NCBI RefSeq assembly: GCF_001638985.1
Contig: NW_017265155.1
Coordinates: 744,001-808,000, forward strand
Source: Phycomyces blakesleeanus NRRL 1555(-)
Lineage: Eukaryota; Mucoromycota; Mucoromycetes; Mucorales; Phycomycetaceae
Length of the DNA stretch: 64,000 nucleotides
Direction of reading: 5' to 3'
Both the position numbers and the translations under genes were made by a program. This document shows, piece after piece, positions 2,437-46,771 of this stretch; position 1 is the stretch's first letter; the number at the start of each line of letters is the position of its first letter. The notes beneath the pieces were generated by a model. The model was given only the letters and a program-made list of their open reading frames with translations, was not told the DNA's origin and searched no databases.

Positions 2437-2847
2437 GAATTGGCTCATGTAGCCGACTTTAATTTGATTTATTTCTTCTACTGAAAAAGTTACAGTAAGC
2501 TTGAATGTCTAAGAGCATATCAGTTAGTCCCATTTTCTATTTTTTTTAATAAATCGACTTAAGCTGTATTGGCACTGAAAAAGTCAAAAATAAATAAATA
2601 AATAAATAAATAAAGGGTCAACTTTCAGTTACAATTAACAGAACTATTTTACTATTCTACTATTTAATAGTATTCTTCACTAGTAAATGTACTCATTTTT
2701 CCCCTAAAAGCACTTTATTATATGCTTTACTTTTATTTCTAATATCAAAAAATTAAGTTAAATATTTCCAAAATTATCAGCCTTGTAGTAGGCATAATCT
2801 CTTGGAGTTTCTGTTATCATCATTGTATACTATTGAGACGGAATGTA
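2437..2847. other. AT-rich spacer, short (AAAT)n microsatellite
   Basis: No gene seen. A short AAAT microsatellite lies at about 2587-2614. Confidence 0.6.
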
Positions 2848-3305
2848 TTGGTTTATATAAAGAAGTAGTCCAAATGGTTAACAGAAAAAGAGAATATGTA
2901 TCAATCTCCTCTAACAACTCCTTAGCCCTAATATTGGCAATTGGCAGCTTGTTCTCTCGAGAAAGATAAAAAGAAAATAGAAGTGATATGTAAGGATGTT
3001 CTTTATTGCTTTCATCTTTCGATGTTTATATAGATATTTTGATAATAAATAAAATAATATAATTAGTTAGATATTACTAAGCTATTACTAAGAGGTTGGA
3101 ATAAACTATGCTTCATAAAAAAATAAGAGAGAGAAATAGAGGTAGATAGTCATTGTTGGGGTTCATTGTTACAGTCCTTATGATTTTCAATTGATTGCTG
3201 CGCCAGTGGTAACAATCATGTTCTTCCCAAAATTATTACTTAATCGATTGGTTTACATAATTGATACAAAAAGATTTAGAGATATGTGATATGTTTGGGC
3301 CGGCC
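2848..3305 (+). repeat. Left arm of a long inverted repeat
   Basis: This arm reads from TTGGTTTATATAAAGAAG inward. It matches the reverse complement of 7521-7958 for about 450 bp with moderate divergence. Shared landmarks in order are CAAATGGTTAACAG, AAGAAAGATAAAAAGAAAAT, CTTATTGCTTT-like, TATATAGATATTT, AAACTATGCTTC, ACATAATTGATACAAA and GATATGTTTGGG. A partial third copy in the orientation of the right arm lies at about 3935-4105. The arms look like long terminal inverted repeats of a DNA transposon or foldback element. The exact ends are not certain and no transposase was found between them. Confidence 0.75.
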
Positions 3306-4779
3306 GAAAATGTGAATATACATGCAACATGTCAATGTCAATATTAATCAATATTGAATGAGGAATGGAGGTCACAGAAATATAATGTTAAAGGATTGCA
3401 GATAATCTGGTAGGAGAGTGGTGAGACGTGCTATATTGGTTTATGTGATGTAATGGTTGATGAAAAAAGTATAGATAAAAAGAGAAGAAGGGGTGGTCAG
3501 ATCAACATTCACAGCTTTTGTAGAAAATAGTAGTGTTCTTATGATCGAGACCCAGAAAAAAGAAAGGAAAAGAAAATATAAGTGTAAAAACTGTTCTTTA
3601 TGGGATTGATTTGTTTGGGACTATATAGTTTTCTTTGAGTTAAGCTGATATCACGTTATTGAGATAATTCGATAGTTTATATAATAATAATTGTGTTGGT
3701 AATTGAATATGGGTACTTGTCCAAAACCAACTGAGCCACCAGCTTGTCAATAGATACTTAGACTGTACTAGTATAAAATATAAAAATTAACGTAAAGGAA
3801 AGAATCTCTATAAGCCTTGAAATATTGTTCAAAAGTAATTAATACGCTACAAGTCTTAATATATTATAACTTGAAGTAAAAAGATTTCTGTAAAGAAGCT
3901 GCTGAAATTGCTCTTGCTAATTATCTTATTCTATTAGCTGCTGATATATATATATATAAGCATAAGAAAATAAATGTAATATAGATCACCCTAACATATC
4001 TCTCTTTTTATTTTCTCTATTACTTTTAAGAGAATAGACTGATATTGACAATATATATTCTCTTTTATTCTTAACCATTTGAGCAATCTATCATATAAAC
4101 CACTCGTCTCTTTTGCAATAACATTTATACAGTTATTTATTTGTCTTTGAACATAATTCTGTAAATAATAAGCTGTGCTGGCTAACGTGTGTGAATATAC
4201 ACTATAATAGCAATATTTTGATCTATCAAGAGTAAGAAAAAATATTATACTTGTAGTTCAAAAGAAATATTGCATACATATATAGAATTGAATAGACTAT
4301 TTTTTTTTAAAAAAAAAAGTATACTTGAGAACTGGTAGAATACCAACTGCTTTAATAAATATATGCCACTGTTTGCTTAATAGTAGTACTTTTCTACTTA
4401 CATGTCTTTTAACATACTTTGTGAAATGAAAGTAAACAAATTGTGGTTAGAAGGTTAAGGAGGCTTTCTTTATTTGTATGGCGGATTTTTAAAAAACAGT
4501 ATGATCATCAGTAGTGTGATTAGAAACATAGAAAAATATATTTCTCCAAAGACATAAAAAGGTTATATAAAGCATAGTAATACTCAAATTCACCCATTGG
4601 CTGTACTACTCAATGTATTTATTAGGCAATACCAAGAGGTTTTTGATAATAGTCTGGAACAAAAAGCATATAACTTTTACCTACAACGTAAAGCCCTTTA
4701 GTTTTTATATGAATTTGTTTTGATTTGCCCAAAATAGGCCTTTTACGCCTTCTGTGCTGCGCCAGCCCCATTTTTTTCA
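3306..4779. other. AT-rich interior, partial copy of the inverted-repeat arm
   Basis: There is no coding sequence. A shortened copy of the arm, in minus orientation, occupies about 3935-4105, with landmarks TATATAAGCAT, CACCCTAACATATC, TATTGACAATATATAT and TTAACCATTTGAG. The left arm plus this copy would form a ~1.26-kb non-autonomous element (2848-4105). Confidence 0.5.
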
Positions 4780-4786
4780 TATAAAA
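4780..4786 (+). promoter_or_regulatory. TATAAAA box upstream of the spliced rRNA-like locus
   Basis: A TATAAAA motif lies about 215 bp upstream of the first well-formed 5' splice site (4995), followed by a pyrimidine-rich stretch. It could be a Pol II promoter for the spliced transcript described next. This rests on motif and position only. Confidence 0.35.
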
Positions 4787-4864
4787 ATTGATACAATTCC
4801 CAATTTCTTGTAATCCCCCCTCTTCCTCCTGGTTTCCCTTTGGTGGTCCTTGGTTTCCGACACG

Positions 4865-5557
4865 GTAAGAAAATCGCCTTTAGATGCCTATATCTTTCCA
4901 TTTGCATAAGGCTCATACTGATATTTACTATGGAAACGCACCCCAGACGCGGTCTCTAGCTAAGTTTCAAAAACAATGTCCAGTCTAATAGCAGGTAAGA
5001 CAATATACAGACACACACACGCCTTGACACGGTCAGCGTACTAACTACAGCCCAGTGTCTCTTGTGCTTTTTTTGTCTTGTATGCCCAGCGTCCATTCCA
5101 CTGTAGCTACGGAGAGGTCCTTCACGTCATGTTCATGTATCAGGTAAGTAAATATACAGATAGATACTTTGACACAATCAACACACTAACTATGGTTCGA
5201 TGCTTTCATTTTTTATGACAGTGTCCAGTGTCCAGTGTCTAGTTCCGTTTTGCTTTCGAGCATAAGTACTGTTTAAGCCCTACGCGGTTATCTGCTAGGT
5301 AAGTAAACGCATACACACACACACACATACCCACACTTTGACACGATCAACACACTAACTATGATTTAATGTTTTATTTTATTTTATTACAGTGTCCAGT
5401 GTCCCGTTTCCAGTCCCGTTTTGCTTTTGAGCATCAGTACTTTTTAAGCTCTTTGCGATTATCGGTTAGGTAAGTAAACGCGCACACGCGCACATACTTT
5501 GACATGACAAGTATATTAACCTTTTACTCTATTTTTTTTCTATTTCTACATTTGCAG
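4865..5557 (+). ncRNA. Non-coding spliced exon array with a duplicated 77-nt exon
   Basis: Four candidate introns follow each other: 4995-5089, 5144-5221, 5299-5392 and 5470-5557. Three start GTAAGTAAA and the first GTAAGAC. All end in AG. They carry a branch-point-like TACTAAC or CACACTAAC, or TATTAACC in the last. The enclosed exons are 5090-5143 (54 nt), 5222-5298 (77 nt) and 5393-5469 (77 nt). The two 77-nt exons are clear duplicates: both start TGTCCAGTGTCC and share CCGTTTTGCTTT and GAGCAT. Every frame of the first 77-mer contains a stop, so the exons are non-coding. A possible extra donor lies at 4869. The last acceptor (5557) joins to the rRNA-like sequence. The start of the first exon is unknown. 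Confidence 0.6.
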
Positions 5558-5650
5558 TGATCCCTGAATACCTCGTATTCTATTGGTCACGATATATCAA
5601 AAGGAATATACGTAAACATTTTCATGCAAGATGTGTATATCATGGTCTTT

Positions 5651-5795
5651 AACAATGAGTCTCCGGGCTCATTTCCAACTCGCTCATTGTAGACGCCTTA
5701 TTTATAGGGCTTGTCTTAATATGAGATTCTGGTTTTTTATTGGAAGCATTGCGCTCTTTGGCTAGTCTGGCCATTGAGTTCGCTCAAGGTGCTAT
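5651..5795 (+). rRNA. Divergent 5.8S rRNA-like segment
   Basis: By eye this aligns with the 3' two thirds of eukaryotic 5.8S rRNA. The motif CATTGCGCTCTTTGG (5757-5771 region) matches the conserved 'GCATATTGCGCTCTTTGG' block. The following CCATTGAGTTCG corresponds to the 5.8S 3' end ('GCCTGTTTGAGTG'). The 5' part is much weaker. It runs directly into the LSU-like sequence with no ITS2, as in microsporidian or bacterial LSU. The alignment is from memory. It may be a pseudogene or a divergent paralogue. Confidence 0.6.
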
Positions 5796-6850
5796 GGTCT
5801 GAAATCTGATCTGTGCCTTGCGCGATTCTACTTGCATTTACTGCAGGGGAGAAGAAACCAAAAGGGATTCTGTCTTGGACTTTATTGTTTGAGATGGAGA
5901 AGCTCCAATGTTTGAACCGGAGTGGTCTTTTGGCTGCTCTGGATTGTGAACTAGTGAACTGCTTTTCCAGACATACCAACAAGTCAGTAGCCTTCACTCC
6001 CTGGAAAAGGTTATTGGAGGGTGCAATCCCCTCACCTTGTCTTGAGTTCTTGTCTTTGTGTTAAGTAGCTTCCGATGAGTCGGGTTGTTTTTACAAACTC
6101 CCTAATCCCGGTGAAAAGTTTCATCGAAGGCTAAACTTATTTATAAAAAACCAACTGATCACAAGTACCGTCAGGGAAAGTAGCTCTTAGTGTAGAGCAT
6201 AACTGGTGTTAAAGACCTTCCTGAGTCAGTCATATGAAGGCGAAAGCCGGATGAAATCCACGTCAGTTTTTTCTGTGTTGTGCGGCACATAACATGGAGA
6301 AGACTGAGGAACGCAGAGGTAGCTTTATGCTATTTTCTTAGGACGTTGGATATTGGCTCTCCAGATTTTGTCCTTTGGGACATGTCAAGATTGTCACAGA
6401 AAGGTGCAAGTATAAGGGTGTATCACCTGGATGCGTAGAGTTTTTTAAATTCGTTGAGCACCTGGACGTGAGGTAATACAGGTAGATTCCAGCAGAATCG
6501 ACAGATTACCCAGTACAATCGCCTGTATTTTACTGCTTCCTGTTGAAATGATCCCTGTGCTTTTCAAGTCCCTCATTGCTTAGACTTTGATACTTGTAAC
6601 CCACGCTCTGGTAAACAGAACTGGACATGAGGGACGAACCCGAAGCAAAGTTAAGGTGCCTAAGTAAATGCTATGCTGTTCACTTGGGTGTCTCAGACAC
6701 CTGTCCCGAGCAGTTTGGCATTAAAGCATTTCACCGATACTTTGCCGTCATGGTAAATTTGATGCCATGCCGAGTAGGCAGGAATGAGGGTTGTTGAGAA
6801 GCTTGGGTGTAAACTTGAGTGGATCGGCCTTCAAGCGCAGGTCTTGACAA
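5796..6850 (+). rRNA. Divergent, 3'-truncated large-subunit (28S) rRNA-like sequence
   Basis: The segment is colinear with roughly the first third of eukaryotic 28S rRNA. Landmarks in order: GAAATCTGATCTG (start of 28S), GGGGAGAAGAAACC ('GGAGGAAAAGAAACC'), CCTGGAAAAGG (6000-6010), GAGGGTGCAATCCC, GAGTCGGGTTGTTT, AAGTACCGTCAGGGAAAG (6163-6180, one change from the universal GTGAGGGAAAG), GACTGAGGAACGCAG (6302-6316), CTGCTTCCTGTTGAAA, CAGAACTGG (6616-6624), GTTAAGGTGCC (6650-6660) and GAGTAGGCAGG (6772-6782). Similarity stops near 6850, before the peptidyl-transferase region. Divergence is large, several variable domains are shortened, and no SSU rRNA lies nearby. It may be an ancient rDNA fragment, a pseudogene inside a transposon, or the last exon of the spliced non-coding transcript upstream. 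Translations of this stretch should not be called proteins. Confidence 0.75.
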
Positions 6851-7191
6851 AAAAATCTTTATTTTTTACTTTTTGGGATAAATCGGATACACTTTAAAAA
6901 CAGACGAACGAATATTTTAATACAATATTCAGTACTGAGATCTGTTTGAATTTTTTTATTTTCTTACAAGCAAGGTATGTATATGTATATATAGACTCGT
7001 ACCAACAATAGTCATCATACTTATTAAACTCTAATATATTAATAATACAACTTCTTTAGCATTCTTGGCTTAGCCGATCTTCTTTCACTTGACAACTCAT
7101 GCCTAAAAACATATAAATACAAAGGTACAGTTTTTCTTTTAAAAAAAATCAATAGTTTAATGACGTTTCATTAACTTTCTTCATCTCATGT

Positions 7192-7255
7192 ATGCAATTA
7201 AGCATTCACATGCAATTAGGCATTGCCACGCAATTAGGCATTGACATGCACTTAA
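7192..7255. repeat. 18-bp tandem repeat, about 3.5 units
   Basis: Units start at 7192, 7210, 7228 and 7246 with consensus ATGCAATTAGGCATTGAC. The array is small and lies between the rRNA-like segment and the right inverted-repeat arm. No gene is seen in 6851-7520. Confidence 0.8.
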
Positions 7256-7520
7256 TATTACAAACGCCAGCCCGAGTATTGTTTTATTACATATAGGTAA
7301 TCACCGCCACCTCCTTAAAGGTTTTTGAATATTAAACTCTTTTTTTTTTCACTCTTCTGGTGGAGTATTCTTATTAGATCTCTATAGAGCTAAGATCTGG
7401 GCTACTTGACAGCCTTACTATTACTATAAAAATATGCTAGGAAGCTTTATCTTCATTGAGAGCTTAGATAAATAAAGTATTCCTCATTCTCATTAGCTCA
7501 TTGCTAGTGTCTTGGAACTT

Positions 7521-7958
7521 CCATATGACCCAAACATATCTTATCTTTCTAAATCTTTTTCTTTGTATCAATTATGTAAATAAATTGCTCAAGTCTTGAC
7601 CACAAGAAGAATATAATTCTTATAGCTGGCAAAGAAATCAATTAAAAAACGCAAGAATTGTAACAATCAATGCCAACAATATCGATCTATTTCTATTTCT
7701 TTCTCTTATTCATCATTAATTATCCAAAGAAGCATAGTTTATCCCAGCATATTTATTAATTATTGAAATATCTATATAAGCATCAAAAGAGAAAAGCAAT
7801 AAGGAACACCCTTACACATCACTTTTATTTTCTTTTTATCTTTCTTGAGATAACAAGCTGTTAATTGCCAATATTTGGGCCAAGGAGTTGTTAAAGGAGA
7901 CCAATATATATCCCTTTCTTTCTGTTAACCATTTGGGTCACTTCTTTACATAAACCAA
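7521..7958 (-). repeat. Right arm of the long inverted repeat
   Basis: This is the reverse complement of 2848-3305 with scattered differences. Read on the minus strand it begins TTGGTTTATGTAAAGAAG and ends around GATATGTTTGGGTC. Together with the left arm it encloses the spliced rRNA-like locus, giving a ~5.1-kb unit. Target-site duplications could not be fixed. Confidence 0.75.
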
Positions 7959-8086
7959 CACAGCCAGTATCACCTTTTCAAATGTAAAGAATAATGATTC
8001 AGAAATAAGGTGAAATAAGCCCAGATTGTAAAACTATGCTTTTCTCATAATATATTAGATTTTCAATGCAAAGAGCTTTACTTATA

Positions 8087-8578
8087 GGGGGTTTCACCAG
8101 TTCCGGATGCTTGACTGTTAGATGTAATGATAGCTTAACCACTATTCAATAATAATCAATATCGAAAAAAACTATTGAGTACCATTAATGTCTCTTGGTT
8201 GATATGTTTTCTCTCATATATGTCAAAATTCATAGGTACAATACGCTTGATTAGAATACTCATAAATATAGTGCCTATGCCCAAATTCCCCACAATTAAG
8301 TTAGACTTCTATAATTTGGTATCAATATAGCCACTCTTACATAGATTTCTTATGTTTTATTTTTGACTTTGCTTTTCTATGAACCTGGCCATCAATTGTA
8401 CATAAAGTACAAATTTTTGTAAATTTTGGTCAAGTCATGACAACTAGAGTATCGAACAATTTTTTTTTGGATACCTGGATGCTGTTTTCAATTTTTGAAG
8501 CTTCGTCACAGCCAATCGTTTTTTGAATTAAACTACCGCTACATCCAACAGTCAAGCATCCAGAGCTGGTGAAACCCC
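8087..8578. mobile_element. MITE-like element with ~46-bp terminal inverted repeats
   Basis: The left end GGGGGTTTCACCAGTTCCGG and its continuation through GGATGCTTGACTGTT are repeated in inverted orientation at about 8532-8578, ending CTGGTGAAACCCC, with a handful of mismatches over ~46 bp. The ~490-bp element has no coding capacity. A TA lies immediately left of the element and TATA a few bases to the right, so a TA target is possible but unproven. Confidence 0.7.
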
Positions 8579-10246
8579 TTTTTTTATAAATACAAGTGTT
8601 TCTTTACATTAAGATTTATCGTCGTGTTGATTTCAATACATATACAATATATATGATTAAGGCTTGATTTTGTTAATGCTTTTGTAATGTGGATTCAATT
8701 GCGTATAGCTTGTAGCTTATAGGAACAAGTTTAACGTTAACCTCCTTAATAATTTTTGATTTTCTTCTTCTTTCTATTCCTTGTTCATCCCCCCCCCCTC
8801 CAACCCTTGGAATTTTATTGTACTTTATTTTATTTTTCTCTGTGTGTGTGTGTCAAGGTATAAATTCAAAAATGAAACAAAGATCTCGATCAAAATAATC
8901 TTATTTGTGTGCAACAATTTCTTTCTTCTGATCGCCTCCCACCAAATTTCTCCTTTACTTCTTTTTCTTTTATCCCTTCATAACCCTCATTTGATAGCCA
9001 TCGCCACTTTTCAACACAGTAAAGCTAAAACTACAACAACAACAACAACAACACTAGTAATATTAAGGGAATTGTGCTTAATCGACATTCAACAAACTCC
9101 CCAAAAGAAAGTGCTACAGGAGGGATAATAGTCGCGGAAACAAATGGAAATATATCCGTGGTCTAGACAATCTTGTAAATATCCAGATATTATTCTTATA
9201 TTTTAATTTAGTACCAATTCCTCCCCTTAACATTAACTTTGATTACCCTTTAATCTCACTTTCCTTTTGTGCTTATATATGTATATATGTATGCATGTGT
9301 ATGATCACACTCAAAACATGGTCCGTGCGATTGATAAAGAAAGCCAAATGTTTCTATAGTGGAATACTTACTATATATATATATATATATAAGAATAACT
9401 TGATCATGGAATTGTAGGCAAGTTACCTTGTACTTGTAAAACCATTGCTTACAACACTCCTTTACCACAAATATAATAATAATCTTTATAGTATTGATGA
9501 GAGATCGTTATTCTGGAATAAAGGCTTTGATTCTGGGTCCCTTGAAAAGAACCCCATATTTTCTTTTCTCTCTCCTTTTCAAATAAATACATACACTCGA
9601 GTATTTAAAGAATACAATATTTGTTGTCTTGAAAATATAAACCAGATCCAAATAATAGATAATACCTACTATGAAAGAAAGGTTTTGATTTTTGTTACCT
9701 GACGGTGGGCCGTCAAATTGTAGTAACTAGTTATACCTTTAGATTGTAGTCAATCGACTGCTTAATATAACGTAAGACCGTTTGTCTTTTGGTAAGTCAT
9801 TGTCTCCTGTTCTCTCTTATTAGATTAGCAATTTTTCATTTAGATTTTAATACCTAAACTTTAATAAAAAAAAGGTGATCTTTTTTATTTTCACACACGT
9901 AAAGAGAGGTATAGATAGGGCCATTGGATTCATTATTAATTATTATTACAAGATCGGAAAATACTTTGGACATAAAGTGTATATAGACAATATATTATGA
10001 CTCATTTTTATTATTATTTAACCAAATAGATAAATAAAGAAGAGCTGTAGTTATAGTATATCTTTATTTATTTATATATTATTAATATAAAAAAAGTAGA
10101 TGAATAGCTAAAAAGAAGAATGAAAAAGAAACTTACTCAGTGTATAGTTTGATGGTATACAGGGTGTAGATATTGTGTGTGTGTGTTTCTTTTTATTACT
10201 CAAATAGTCTAAAAATCCATCCTCATCATCATATTGTTCTTTTTTT
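8579..10246. other. Intergenic, no supported gene
   Basis: A frame at 8781-9128 is low-complexity (poly-Thr from an ACA repeat, hydrophobic runs) and has no family resemblance. The pyrimidine-rich sequence around 8900-9050 resembles a Pol II leader, but no coding exon could be built downstream. TA and TG microsatellites occur near 9370 and 10170. Confidence 0.55.
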
Positions 10247-24755: not shown

Positions 24756-26221
24756 CAGTGCTTCTACTGCCGTTTGGACACTTTTTTGAAATCATTGGTC
24801 ACTTGTTTAAACTTCAATTGGTCATTTTTTTGACCTTCAATTGGTCGTTACTGAGACGTTTTATTTTCTCTTTTTCTATGAAGACGGCACCGGTAGAATT
24901 TTTGGCTGGCAAGGTCAGGAAGCACCGAGTTACGTTGAGGATAAATCATTTCGCTTAAAAAAATTGACAGATCGAAAGTATATCAAAAATCAAGAAGTTC
25001 AGGTTGAAACAAGATCTCCAGCCGACACTGGGATGAACGAGGCTGAGCCTAAGAAGGAAAGAGATCCGCAATATAACGTTTATACGTTCGAAGATCGCAA
25101 GCGTTATTTTTATTTTTTAAAAGAAAAACTCATGAAACCAAGGCAAGCAGCCATAGCAGCCAATGTCAATTACGACACTGCTCTCAAGTGGAAACAAACA
25201 TATGAGGATGATCCTGAGAGAAATATCCCAGTTAAAAAAACCGATAAAACCATATATAGAATAGTCAGCCAGCTAAATGAAGCCCATGAGTCTCATTTAA
25301 TCAATTTTTTTGACGAAGATTCTACGGCAACAATTCAGGACACTGTAGAGGACTTGACTGCGAAGTTTGCGGACTTGGATATAAAAAAGTCGAGGGTAGC
25401 CGAGTTTATGAAGGAGGAGTGCAACCTTAGTATTAAAGTTTTAAGTCAACATCCTGTTGCCAGAAACAAAGAGGAAACCCTTGAGAAACGAGCAAATTGG
25501 GTTGAGAAGTGGATTCAAAATGGTATGGACTATCTCAAGAACTGTATATTTGTTGATGAGTTCGGATTTGATATCAACATGCGTCGTAGTCGAGGCTGGT
25601 CACCACACGGTTCAAAGTCAATGACTGAGACTTCGTCGACAAAAGCTACTTCGCATAGTGTTCTTGGTGCAATTTCGGCAATCGGTGTTATGAATATGAA
25701 GCTAAGAGAGACTGGAAATTTGAAGAGAAGGAAAGTGATGGGAGCTACAAAAAGAAAGGCTCCTGAGGATCAATTGTCTGTACCCAAAGGTACTACAGGT
25801 GAACATTATCTTCAGTTTATTAGTGATTCCATGGATATCATGGACGAGTTTTTAGAAATGAAAGATTACTTTATTATTATGGACAGTGCTCCAATTCATG
25901 TCCCTGAAATAATTGATCCAATAATCATACAGCGAGGCTACACCCCAGTGTACCTTCCACCCTACTCGCCAGAATTAAATCCAATCGAATAATTCTGGTC
26001 CATCATAAATGCTAAAATAAGACAAATCAAGCTTAGTGATATAGAAACTCTTACTACTAGAATAATTGAGGCTAGTGAAGATGTGCCAATTGTTCATATT
26101 GAAAACATTGTTCAGCATTCAGTAGATCAGTTTGAAAATTGTCAAAATAAAATGCCCTTATAAACTTTTAAAGAATGACCAATGATTTCAAAAAAATGTC
26201 CAAATGGCAGTAGAAGCACTG
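24756..26221 (+). mobile_element. Tc1/mariner-like DNA transposon, complete ends
   Basis: The 1466-bp element is flanked by TA on both sides (24754-24755 and 26222-26223), the expected target duplication. Its terminal inverted repeats are 46 bp (24756-24801 and 26176-26221), start CAGTGCTTCTACTGCC and differ at only two positions. Similar TTCAATTGGTCA motifs lie just inside the left end. It carries one transposase frame. The near-identical ends suggest recent insertion. Confidence 0.95.
24841..26163 (+). pseudogene. Tc1/mariner-type DDE transposase, interrupted by one stop
   Basis: The frame starts at or after 24841 and runs to TAA at 26161-26163, with one internal TAA at 25990-25992. An N-terminal helix-turn-helix (RQAAIAANVNYDTALKWKQ, about aa 101-120) precedes a DDE core: FVDEFGFDIN (first Asp), IIMDSAPIH (second Asp) and YLPPYSPELNPIE (Glu), a DD34E spacing. 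The internal stop follows this Glu immediately, where relatives have 'EQFWS' or similar. The frame then continues with FWSIINAKIRQIKL to the second stop. The truncated 383-aa product would lack the C-terminal helix. A CAA to TAA change would explain it. The true start codon is uncertain. Confidence 0.9.
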
Positions 26222-45652: not shown

Positions 45653-46150
45653 AAGGCACCACCAGCGGCTGTTCTTGTTTAATAATATTTCCAGAGTTGA
45701 CCATTTTCACTGGACGACTCAAGGTCTCCCGGAAATAAGAATTTATACAAAACGTTCACCTAGTTACGGTCGACCGGCAAGAGTCAGAATTCCGATTATA
45801 AAAATAGCACTAAAATATCACAGTCCCTTGTACTCCTTTCCATTTTTTGTTGTTGTCATCAGCTGCGTTTTATCAATTTGAGCATAGAAACCATCAGCCC
45901 TGAATATTTGTTGTTATTCAAAAGTTACATCTTCCTCTGGCCAATAAAACTAATTTACGACTGATGTCCTGATTAATCGCAGAGGAATATTCGATTGAAT
46001 GGATTTCAAATGAGAGAGAGAGAGAGAGAAAATCTCAGCCAATCATACCAATGAATTTAAAACCCATCTCGAGAACAAGTTTGTGTGCATCTTGATGCAC
46101 CCGTCAATACACCTTTTTACCCAAACTACCCCAATAAACACAGTTTTCGT

Positions 46151-46771
46151 ATGTCTGAACAGCCACAAAAAAAGCAAAAGCCTACCATTCCCTTGGAGGA
46201 TATTCCTGTCCTAAAACTGAAGACAAACGATAAGCAAGCCAACGACAGCTCTGTGTACGCCAACATCCATTATTTCATCTATGCCTTTGAGCGAAAGCTT
46301 ATCGAGAATGCAATGTTGCCTTTTGATGGTTATTGGGAAGAGGCCTTAAAGGTATCGTGCAAGCCGCCGCAGCTCATATGGTTCGATCGAGTCCTGGCAA
46401 ACCGAGGTCTGACCTGGGAAACGGCGCGGGCACAGCTGGAGAAAGATTACGGTGACGAGACATGCCTGGAAACAAAGAAACAGGCATTTAATAAGATGAC
46501 ACAGCGACGTGACGAGCAAGTATCTGAATTTGCCGATCGTTTTTTAGAGCTGATGAAGACATGTTGCATCCATGGAAGCCCCGAACTTGTCAATAGATTC
46601 GCCAATTCCCTTCACTATATCCACCGCAGTAAAGCCCACAATATCATACATTATCATTTTGGCCCAAACCCAACTGAAGATATTGAGCGTATCTTTACTA
46701 CCGTAAAGGATGTTTTTGACAACGGGCCTACCTCTTCTCGACCACCATCAAAGAAACCCCGGCGTGCTTAA
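46151..46771 (+). pseudogene. Retrotransposon gag-like ORF, probable relic
   Basis: From ATG 46151 (the frame is open from 46085) it encodes 206 aa. The core resembles Ty3/Gypsy-type gag: a helical capsid-like region with ENAMLPFDGYWEEAL, LTWETARAQLEKDYGD and KKQAFNKMTQRRDEQVSEFADRFLEL. The C-terminus is Pro/Lys/Arg-rich. No zinc knuckle, protease or reverse transcriptase follows. Just after the stop another frame reads Gln/Pro/Tyr/Ser-rich sequence (about 46770-46900) with scattered TAG/TAA where Gln codons would fit, suggesting a frameshift plus nonsense decay. A domesticated gag gene is the alternative, since the 206-aa core is itself intact. Confidence 0.6.

Follow-up and report, generated by a model that had tools for sequence, protein, structure and literature searches.

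What is a strongly divergent piece of large-subunit (LSU) ribosomal RNA doing outside the ribosomal DNA of Phycomyces blakesleeanus: is it a decaying copy of the rRNA gene, or an RNA that has been kept? The locus lies in a 64,000-nt stretch of contig NW_017265155.1 (positions 744,001 to 808,000), which we call the window. A preliminary description had read 5651..6850 as 5.8S running directly into the first third of 28S rRNA and had proposed a search with Infernal covariance models. In that search (cmscan, Rfam), the LSU model RF02543 matched 5807-6859 (+) with 145.4 bits and an E value of 2.4e-36, which bears out the LSU-like identity. Scanned alone, 6384-6848 scored 93.3 bits (E 1.1e-22) and 5807-6160 scored 41.9 bits (E 1.3e-8; the gathering score of 50 was not reached). 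Scans of the whole window, both at the gathering threshold and at E<=0.5, left the LSU-like unit unreported, and Rfam scanning of long DNA may overlook loci of this kind. The limits first given were roughly right and slightly too narrow, the block common to the most divergent copies running from about 5586 to 6857. We assign a probability of about 0.7 to the reading that this unit is a selected, structured rRNA paralogue. Its parts in the window are as follows.

5586..6857 (+): conserved unit, the LSU-like RNA proper; the block common to copies with largely unrelated flanks
5587..5645 (+): conserved 5' hairpin directly before the 5.8S-like part; RNAalifold on the 12-unit alignment A2, helices 1 and 2
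5646..5780 (+): 5.8S-like segment; short words in common with the host 5.8S, colinear
5781..5824 (+): junction hairpin with an 8-nt loop, at the place of ITS2 in true rDNA; RNAalifold prediction
5644..5653 with 6208..6217 (+): strands of the helix-2 equivalent, a perfect 10-bp complement; direct complementarity
5807..6217 (+): 28S domain I-like part, to the 3' strand of helix 2; RF02543 model positions 1-364 on 5807-6181
6384..6848 (+): 28S domain II-like part; RF02543 model positions 665-1455

The unit agrees with the LSU consensus over 389 of 662 aligned columns, and over 216 of the 308 columns that are strongly conserved, and retains standard pairing in 146 of the 173 modelled pairs, in an Rfam alignment that is itself guided by structure. 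In a structure-blind alignment against the Rfam consensus, domain II pairs with a changed 5' base were still paired in 22 of 35 cases, compared with 13.7 in shuffles (2/2000); the corresponding value for domain I, 17 of 29, was not significant (190/2000). The domain II match stops at the closing helix (6384-6389 with 6843-6848), which is present in the minimum free energy (MFE) fold of this domain (z -3.48), and when domain II was scanned alone the match ended at position 1455 of the 3401 in the model. Longer scans carried the alignment to model positions 3401, 1911, and 1888 with hardly any added sequence: the extra sequence past the unit in the 5807-6859 match is about 11 nt, and one alignment was cut by the end of the locus. 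Inside domain II, 34 nt stand in place of 104 model positions, a stretch that from helix placement we take to be the GTPase-associated centre, and another modelled arm is reduced from 113 positions to 41. Domains III-VI were not found. The earlier statement that SSU and 28S 3' parts are missing held up in 10 kb of one of the palindromes described below, where Rfam at E<=10 returned zero other rRNA matches, and looking for 3' LSU parts by their sarcin-ricin motif showed no signal, with 50 near matches compared with 132 in the reversed control. With its GTPase-associated region replaced and domains III-VI lacking, the RNA could not be a translating rRNA.

The locus had been described as a single one, outside any rDNA array. 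Its placement is correct: the true 5.8S of the host gave a single match (161.6 bits), on contig C17 after the 18S gene, and that contig holds none of the 37 matches to the unit. In this sole assembled rDNA unit found, the host 28S past ITS2 is N for at least 3.7 kb (C17:779847 onwards). Upstream of the 18S gene, C17:772000-775600 is dense in short tandem repeats and is probably intergenic spacer. The single locus, by contrast, gave way to a family. Searching the genome (53.5 Mb, 60 contigs) with the window copy, we found at least 33 full-length and at least 4 partial copies of the unit at 88-100% identity, and a divergent copy used as query returned the identical 37 places. We extracted 26 of the 33 full units, which together with the window's own make 19 distinct sequences, 15 of them in alignment A1 and 12 in A2; the units on C11, C34, and five others are known as matches only. 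One exact 23-base pattern was unmatched in viral and prokaryote collections, which contain little fungal DNA.

Ten divergent pairs, spaced by less than 20 kb, account for 20 of the 33 full copies, and all nine pairs examined (of the ten listed) have the structure of a palindrome with long inverted arms. The main arm blocks of these nine measure 2.6-6.2 kb and are 99.4-100% identical. The window holds one arm of such a palindrome, on contig C22, whose mate lies upstream of the window; the LSU-like units of the two arms are 100% identical.

2437..8592 (+): right arm, main block of the window palindrome; C22 self-comparison, 6160 nt, 99.9% identical
C22:731913-733133 (minus strand): mate LSU-like unit of the window palindrome, upstream of the window

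Over long blocks, palindrome C31a is 92-98% identical to seven other palindromes and 78-93% identical to C22. Its central 1.9 kb is inverted in C31b, C24, and C35a (three of the eight other palindromes), keeps its sense in four, and matches C22 partly in both senses; inversion of this centre in some palindromes points to recombination between arms. Several smaller observations concern the palindromes themselves. The terminal sequence AGGGGGTTTCACCAGCTCTGGATGCTTGACTG... is present at most of the printed palindrome ends and is reversed in C35a, which also has an extra 0.33-kb inverted block (81%) outside its arms. In the window, the region of about 8083-8592 contains a second copy of the terminal sequence, starting near 8087 in the opposite sense, and by eye a separate small inverted-repeat element may make up the outer 0.5 kb of the arm. 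The centre of palindrome C2b (C2, about 758670-761785) is a tandem array with a 54-bp period. Elsewhere in the window, a Tc1-type transposase frame at 24811-25992 (+) shares 89% identity with a protein of Circinella minor (best match 91%), its named matches among the matches listed being from Mucorales genera, and an open frame at 46061-46771 (+) reads by eye like a retrotransposon gag protein.

For the 5' segment, the earlier reading as 5.8S stood in part. The Rfam 5.8S model gave zero matches on the unit at E<=10, and of five copies compared with the host 5.8S, four fell inside the range of 300 shuffles (window copy 27, shuffled maximum 33); the fifth, C4c, reached 40 against a shuffled maximum of 33, in a register that conflicts with the colinear reading. 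Colinear with what had been claimed are the short common words, helix 2, and the junction hairpin: the host 5.8S contains TTGAACGCACATTGCGCTC, with which the window copy has CATTGCGCTC and copy C31b has TTGAACGCAC in common at the colinear place. Because of its position, these short words, and a helix-2 equivalent and ITS2-site hairpin where they are predicted, we regard the 5' segment as 5.8S-like, a sequence-based assignment that is supported, less directly than the LSU homology.

Ribosomal helix 2 forms between the 5' end of 5.8S and 28S, where domain I ends. The equivalent 5' strand in the window, 5644-5653, is GGTCTTTAAC, and when both helix-2 regions were shuffled, a 10-bp complement arose anywhere in 5 of 400 trials. 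Standard pairs occupy 149 of the 150 helix-2 cells in 15 copies, and C4a carries a double change from G-C to A-U. Unconstrained folding of 5640-6222 (5.8S and domain I) placed helix 2 in both the MFE and the centroid structure (z -6.34); the Rfam alignment puts the region around its 3' strand elsewhere, with low confidence. Provided that the 5.8S reading is right, 5.8S and 28S are continuous, with the junction hairpin instead of ITS2, and most variable pairs of this hairpin stay paired, with U-A/C-G and C-G/U-A exchanges. The 5' hairpin is paired in 97-98% of cells (RNAalifold helices 1 and 2, A2). Across the 5' region, two-sided-change cells numbered 5, compared with 1.4 in shuffles (0/500 reach this value); the count of pairs with a two-sided change, 3 compared with 1.3 (35/500), is less decisive, and the count of further pair types (22 compared with 22.1) is neutral.

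Upstream of the unit lies a leader, with these parts in the window.

4860..5557 (+): leader with intron signals; the same donor, branch, and acceptor motifs recur in the seven copies examined
5144-5221, 5299-5392, and 5470-5557 (+): best predicted introns of the window leader; GTAAGT ... CTAAC or TTAAC ... AG

The leader is a tandem array of short exon-like units with introns mostly of 75-96 nt, and GTAAGT-type donors, CTAAC-type branch sites, and AG acceptors are present in C22, C31a, C5, C14, C9, C13, and C2b. The unit begins 28 nt after the last predicted intron. The acceptor of the last C31a intron, GGAG, is weak, and C5 has one of the C31a acceptors altered. A leader, whole or in part, adjoins 31 of the 33 full units, the exceptions being C4:207953 and C4:276246, and each of the 64 leader matches listed falls no more than about 4 kb from an LSU-like unit. 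The leader is absent from C4b and C4c, a remnant in C4a, and interrupted in C4d; C4d has one leader donor and C4a and C4c have none. We infer from these motifs that the leader is probably spliced. Other readings of the region were considered and set aside. Transcription by Pol III is thought unlikely, since runs of T6-T8 break the unit in most copies of the alignment. The longest ATG frame in the unit is 56 aa (three copies), which speaks against protein coding; ATG-to-stop frames in spliced models of C31a and C22 were likewise all <=56 aa, and one 80-aa frame that we checked yielded no protein candidate. A SCARNA7 match on the minus strand at 5300-5442 was rejected, being under its gathering score and on a CA-rich, intron-like stretch; in the stretches scanned by Rfam, zero snoRNA matches over the cut-off were found in support of snoRNA-bearing introns.

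Variation among the copies bears on whether the structure has been under selection. In 12 copies, canonically paired sites were variable at 11 of 292 positions compared with 65 of 696 unpaired sites (P 0.0024), while the three most divergent copies, C4a-c, showed no paired-site restraint (41 of 292 and 74 of 696), and the two sets were heterogeneous (P 0.0015). This contrast depends on 11 events in copies that are not independent of one another, the 12/3 split was chosen after seeing divergence, and C4d, with its interrupted leader, is counted among the 12. The expectation in the preliminary description that conservation would follow the functional core was partly borne out: in the 12 copies, the columns in which a strongly conserved consensus letter is still matched are the least variable (4/216), and strongly conserved columns varied less than all other sites (odds 0.53, P 0.036), but strongly and weakly conserved columns did not differ (odds 0.85, P 0.73). 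The stems likewise give a divided answer. Domain II has kept its pairing relative to the Rfam consensus, as above; within the family, changes in Rfam stems across 15 copies kept pairing 20 times and broke it 31 times, a chance rate (null 0.42), with 7 kept and 4 broken when C4a-c are left out (P 0.13), and covariation over the whole Rfam structure was about at shuffle level. Divergence per third of the unit was 0-9% in ten of eleven chosen copy pairs and 8-11% against C4a, and neighboring 300-nt blocks diverged by 6-63%, the upper values being forced alignments; across the eleven pairs, the unit is less diverged than most flanking blocks compared. In the pairs C31a-C5 and C13-C5, conservation of the leader equals that of the unit over its first third. 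We conclude that constraint on paired sites is supported, and that compensatory evolution within the family is supported locally, in the 5' region and helix 2 only. Gene conversion could imitate such constraint.

How far, then, do simpler histories account for these observations? That the unit is a plain degenerating rDNA pseudogene seems to us the least probable of the alternatives, and scarcely credible for the family as a whole. It does fit C4a-c, in which the leader is absent or a remnant without donors and paired sites are as variable as unpaired ones. Against it stand the number of full copies (at least 33), whose boundaries are conserved, a 3' end that coincides with a domain boundary, fold z-scores of -6.3 and -3.5, and the retention of domain II pairing in the structure-blind alignment. 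The paralogue part of the earlier suggestion, an rRNA paralogue or decoy and not a fresh pseudogene, is supported by the consensus and pairing agreement, the copy number, and a unit less diverged than most of its flanks. A second history, horizontal gain of an LSU fragment from a microsporidium-like, ITS2-less eukaryote in which the structure evolved before the copies drifted, would explain why ITS2 is down to a short hairpin and the variable regions are shortened. We judge it very improbable: it was among copies within the host genome that the two-sided changes and the contrast at paired sites came about, and the leader carries ordinary spliceosomal intron signals.

The strongest of the rivals is a palindromic repeat, selfish or inert, that took up a piece of rRNA which had diverged beforehand, with conversion and recent amplification mimicking constraint. 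This is the kind of element that would have long inverted arms and differing outer flanks, as seen by eye in the 60 nt printed at eight palindromes, and that would undergo arm conversion and have inverted centres; it is also in keeping with the mosaic divergence of the family, for example the identical last third of the C31a and C22 units, and with stem changes that preserve pairing at the null rate only. A non-autonomous DNA transposon is possible. Such a repeat fits less well with the 10 kb of palindrome C31a, which is without a transposase-sized ORF (longest frame 120 aa, stop to stop), or with the eight palindrome end pairs, placed by BLAST, at which no target-site duplication was found by eye. 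C4b and C4c, moreover, have the RNA unit but share little else with the palindrome arm, except an inverted repeat of about 470 nt. The paired-site contrast, which differs between the 12 copies and C4a-c, and the near-complete integrity of helix 2, with a two-sided change in one copy, also tell against it. On balance, we consider the selfish repeat unlikely, and favor a selected, structured rRNA paralogue. We likewise infer selection for an RNA, and its transcription.

Under this preferred reading, the copies would form a dispersed non-coding gene family, mostly of divergent pairs within large palindromes, whose arms would recombine and so keep the copies near-identical. Each gene would give a spliced transcript with short leader exons and then a terminal exon, the LSU paralogue, in which a 5.8S-like sequence is fused to domains I and II and which ends with domain II. 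Such an RNA may imitate the first 60S intermediate (5.8S, domains I-II, and helix 2), so that early LSU assembly factors and ribosomal proteins would bind it and the RNA would titrate or sense them; with ITS2 missing, ITS2-dependent factors would not join. Engineered yeast RNAs offer the comparison. According to the excerpted text of PMC10191850, RNAs that start at site A2 and stop where domain II ends form a stable precursor and bind Noc1-Noc2 and ribosomal proteins. When their helix 2 is disrupted, stability falls and they carry less Noc1, Noc2, Rrp5, and domain II proteins; once helix 2 is restored, the proteins return. A decoy or sensor is favored by a composition like that of the domain II mimic, with helix 2 and the closing helix kept and the later ribosome parts missing. 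It counts against this argument that the unit has no ITS2, and that a 424-nt yeast domain I RNA is stable too in the same excerpt (PMC10191850), so that stability without domain II is possible. By analogy with these mimics, a decoy function is a tentative proposal with the odds somewhat against it. Taken whole, the statement that this is a dispersed palindromic family, probably of a spliced, structured LSU paralogue acting as a decoy for 60S factors, is about an even bet, and the most specific version, a natural, spliced, multicopy decoy of the nascent 60S, reduced to 5.8S and domains I-II, that engages the co-transcriptional 60S assembly checkpoint and thereby controls ribosome production and is kept uniform by palindromic gene conversion, is rather unlikely.

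Among the open-access papers listed by the searches (titles and openings of abstracts), no separately working LSU rRNA paralogue stood out, and we know of no large-rRNA paralogues that survive as separate RNAs with a different job. Several known systems resemble parts of the family. Microsporidian LSU rRNA has no separate ITS2 and shortened variable regions and is a complete, translating rRNA; the likeness is one of description, and the LSU-like unit differs in being neither complete nor translating. Conversion between arms occurs in the palindromes of mammalian sex chromosomes. The gene families in those palindromes, as outlined in the part of PMC9122934 available, likewise have near-identical inverted arms; the fungal palindromes are about 12 kb and more, and large ORFs are absent in the one examined. 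Zebrafish also carries a second rRNA type, in its maternal and somatic forms, which the excerpt of PMC5513064 describes as 45S and expressed as distinct 5.8S, 18S, and 28S, unlike the LSU-like unit with its missing domains III-VI and GTPase region. Filamentous ascomycetes have diverged rRNA paralogues beside normal fungal rDNA as well: in the available portion of PMC5555474, these 45S pseudogenes, judged by mutation and structure, are ascribed to RIP, whereas the LSU-like family is a fixed sub-module in palindromes with its helices retained. Closest are the engineered yeast LSU mimics that end with domain II, which also comprise 5.8S, domains I and II, and helix 2. The LSU-like unit differs from those mimics, as excerpted from PMC10191850, in being natural, multicopy, strongly diverged, and without ITS2, with a leader carrying intron signals in place of the 5' ETS/ITS1; and protein binding was measured for the mimics, whereas the unit is likened to them by its sequence and predicted fold only.

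If the decoy reading is true, an rRNA would be separable from translation and retained for the shape that it takes at the assembly stage. The family would then be a natural probe for the parts of rRNA that are read by the 60S assembly checkpoint, and would suggest a means for a fungus, or for a selfish element, to adjust ribosome output.
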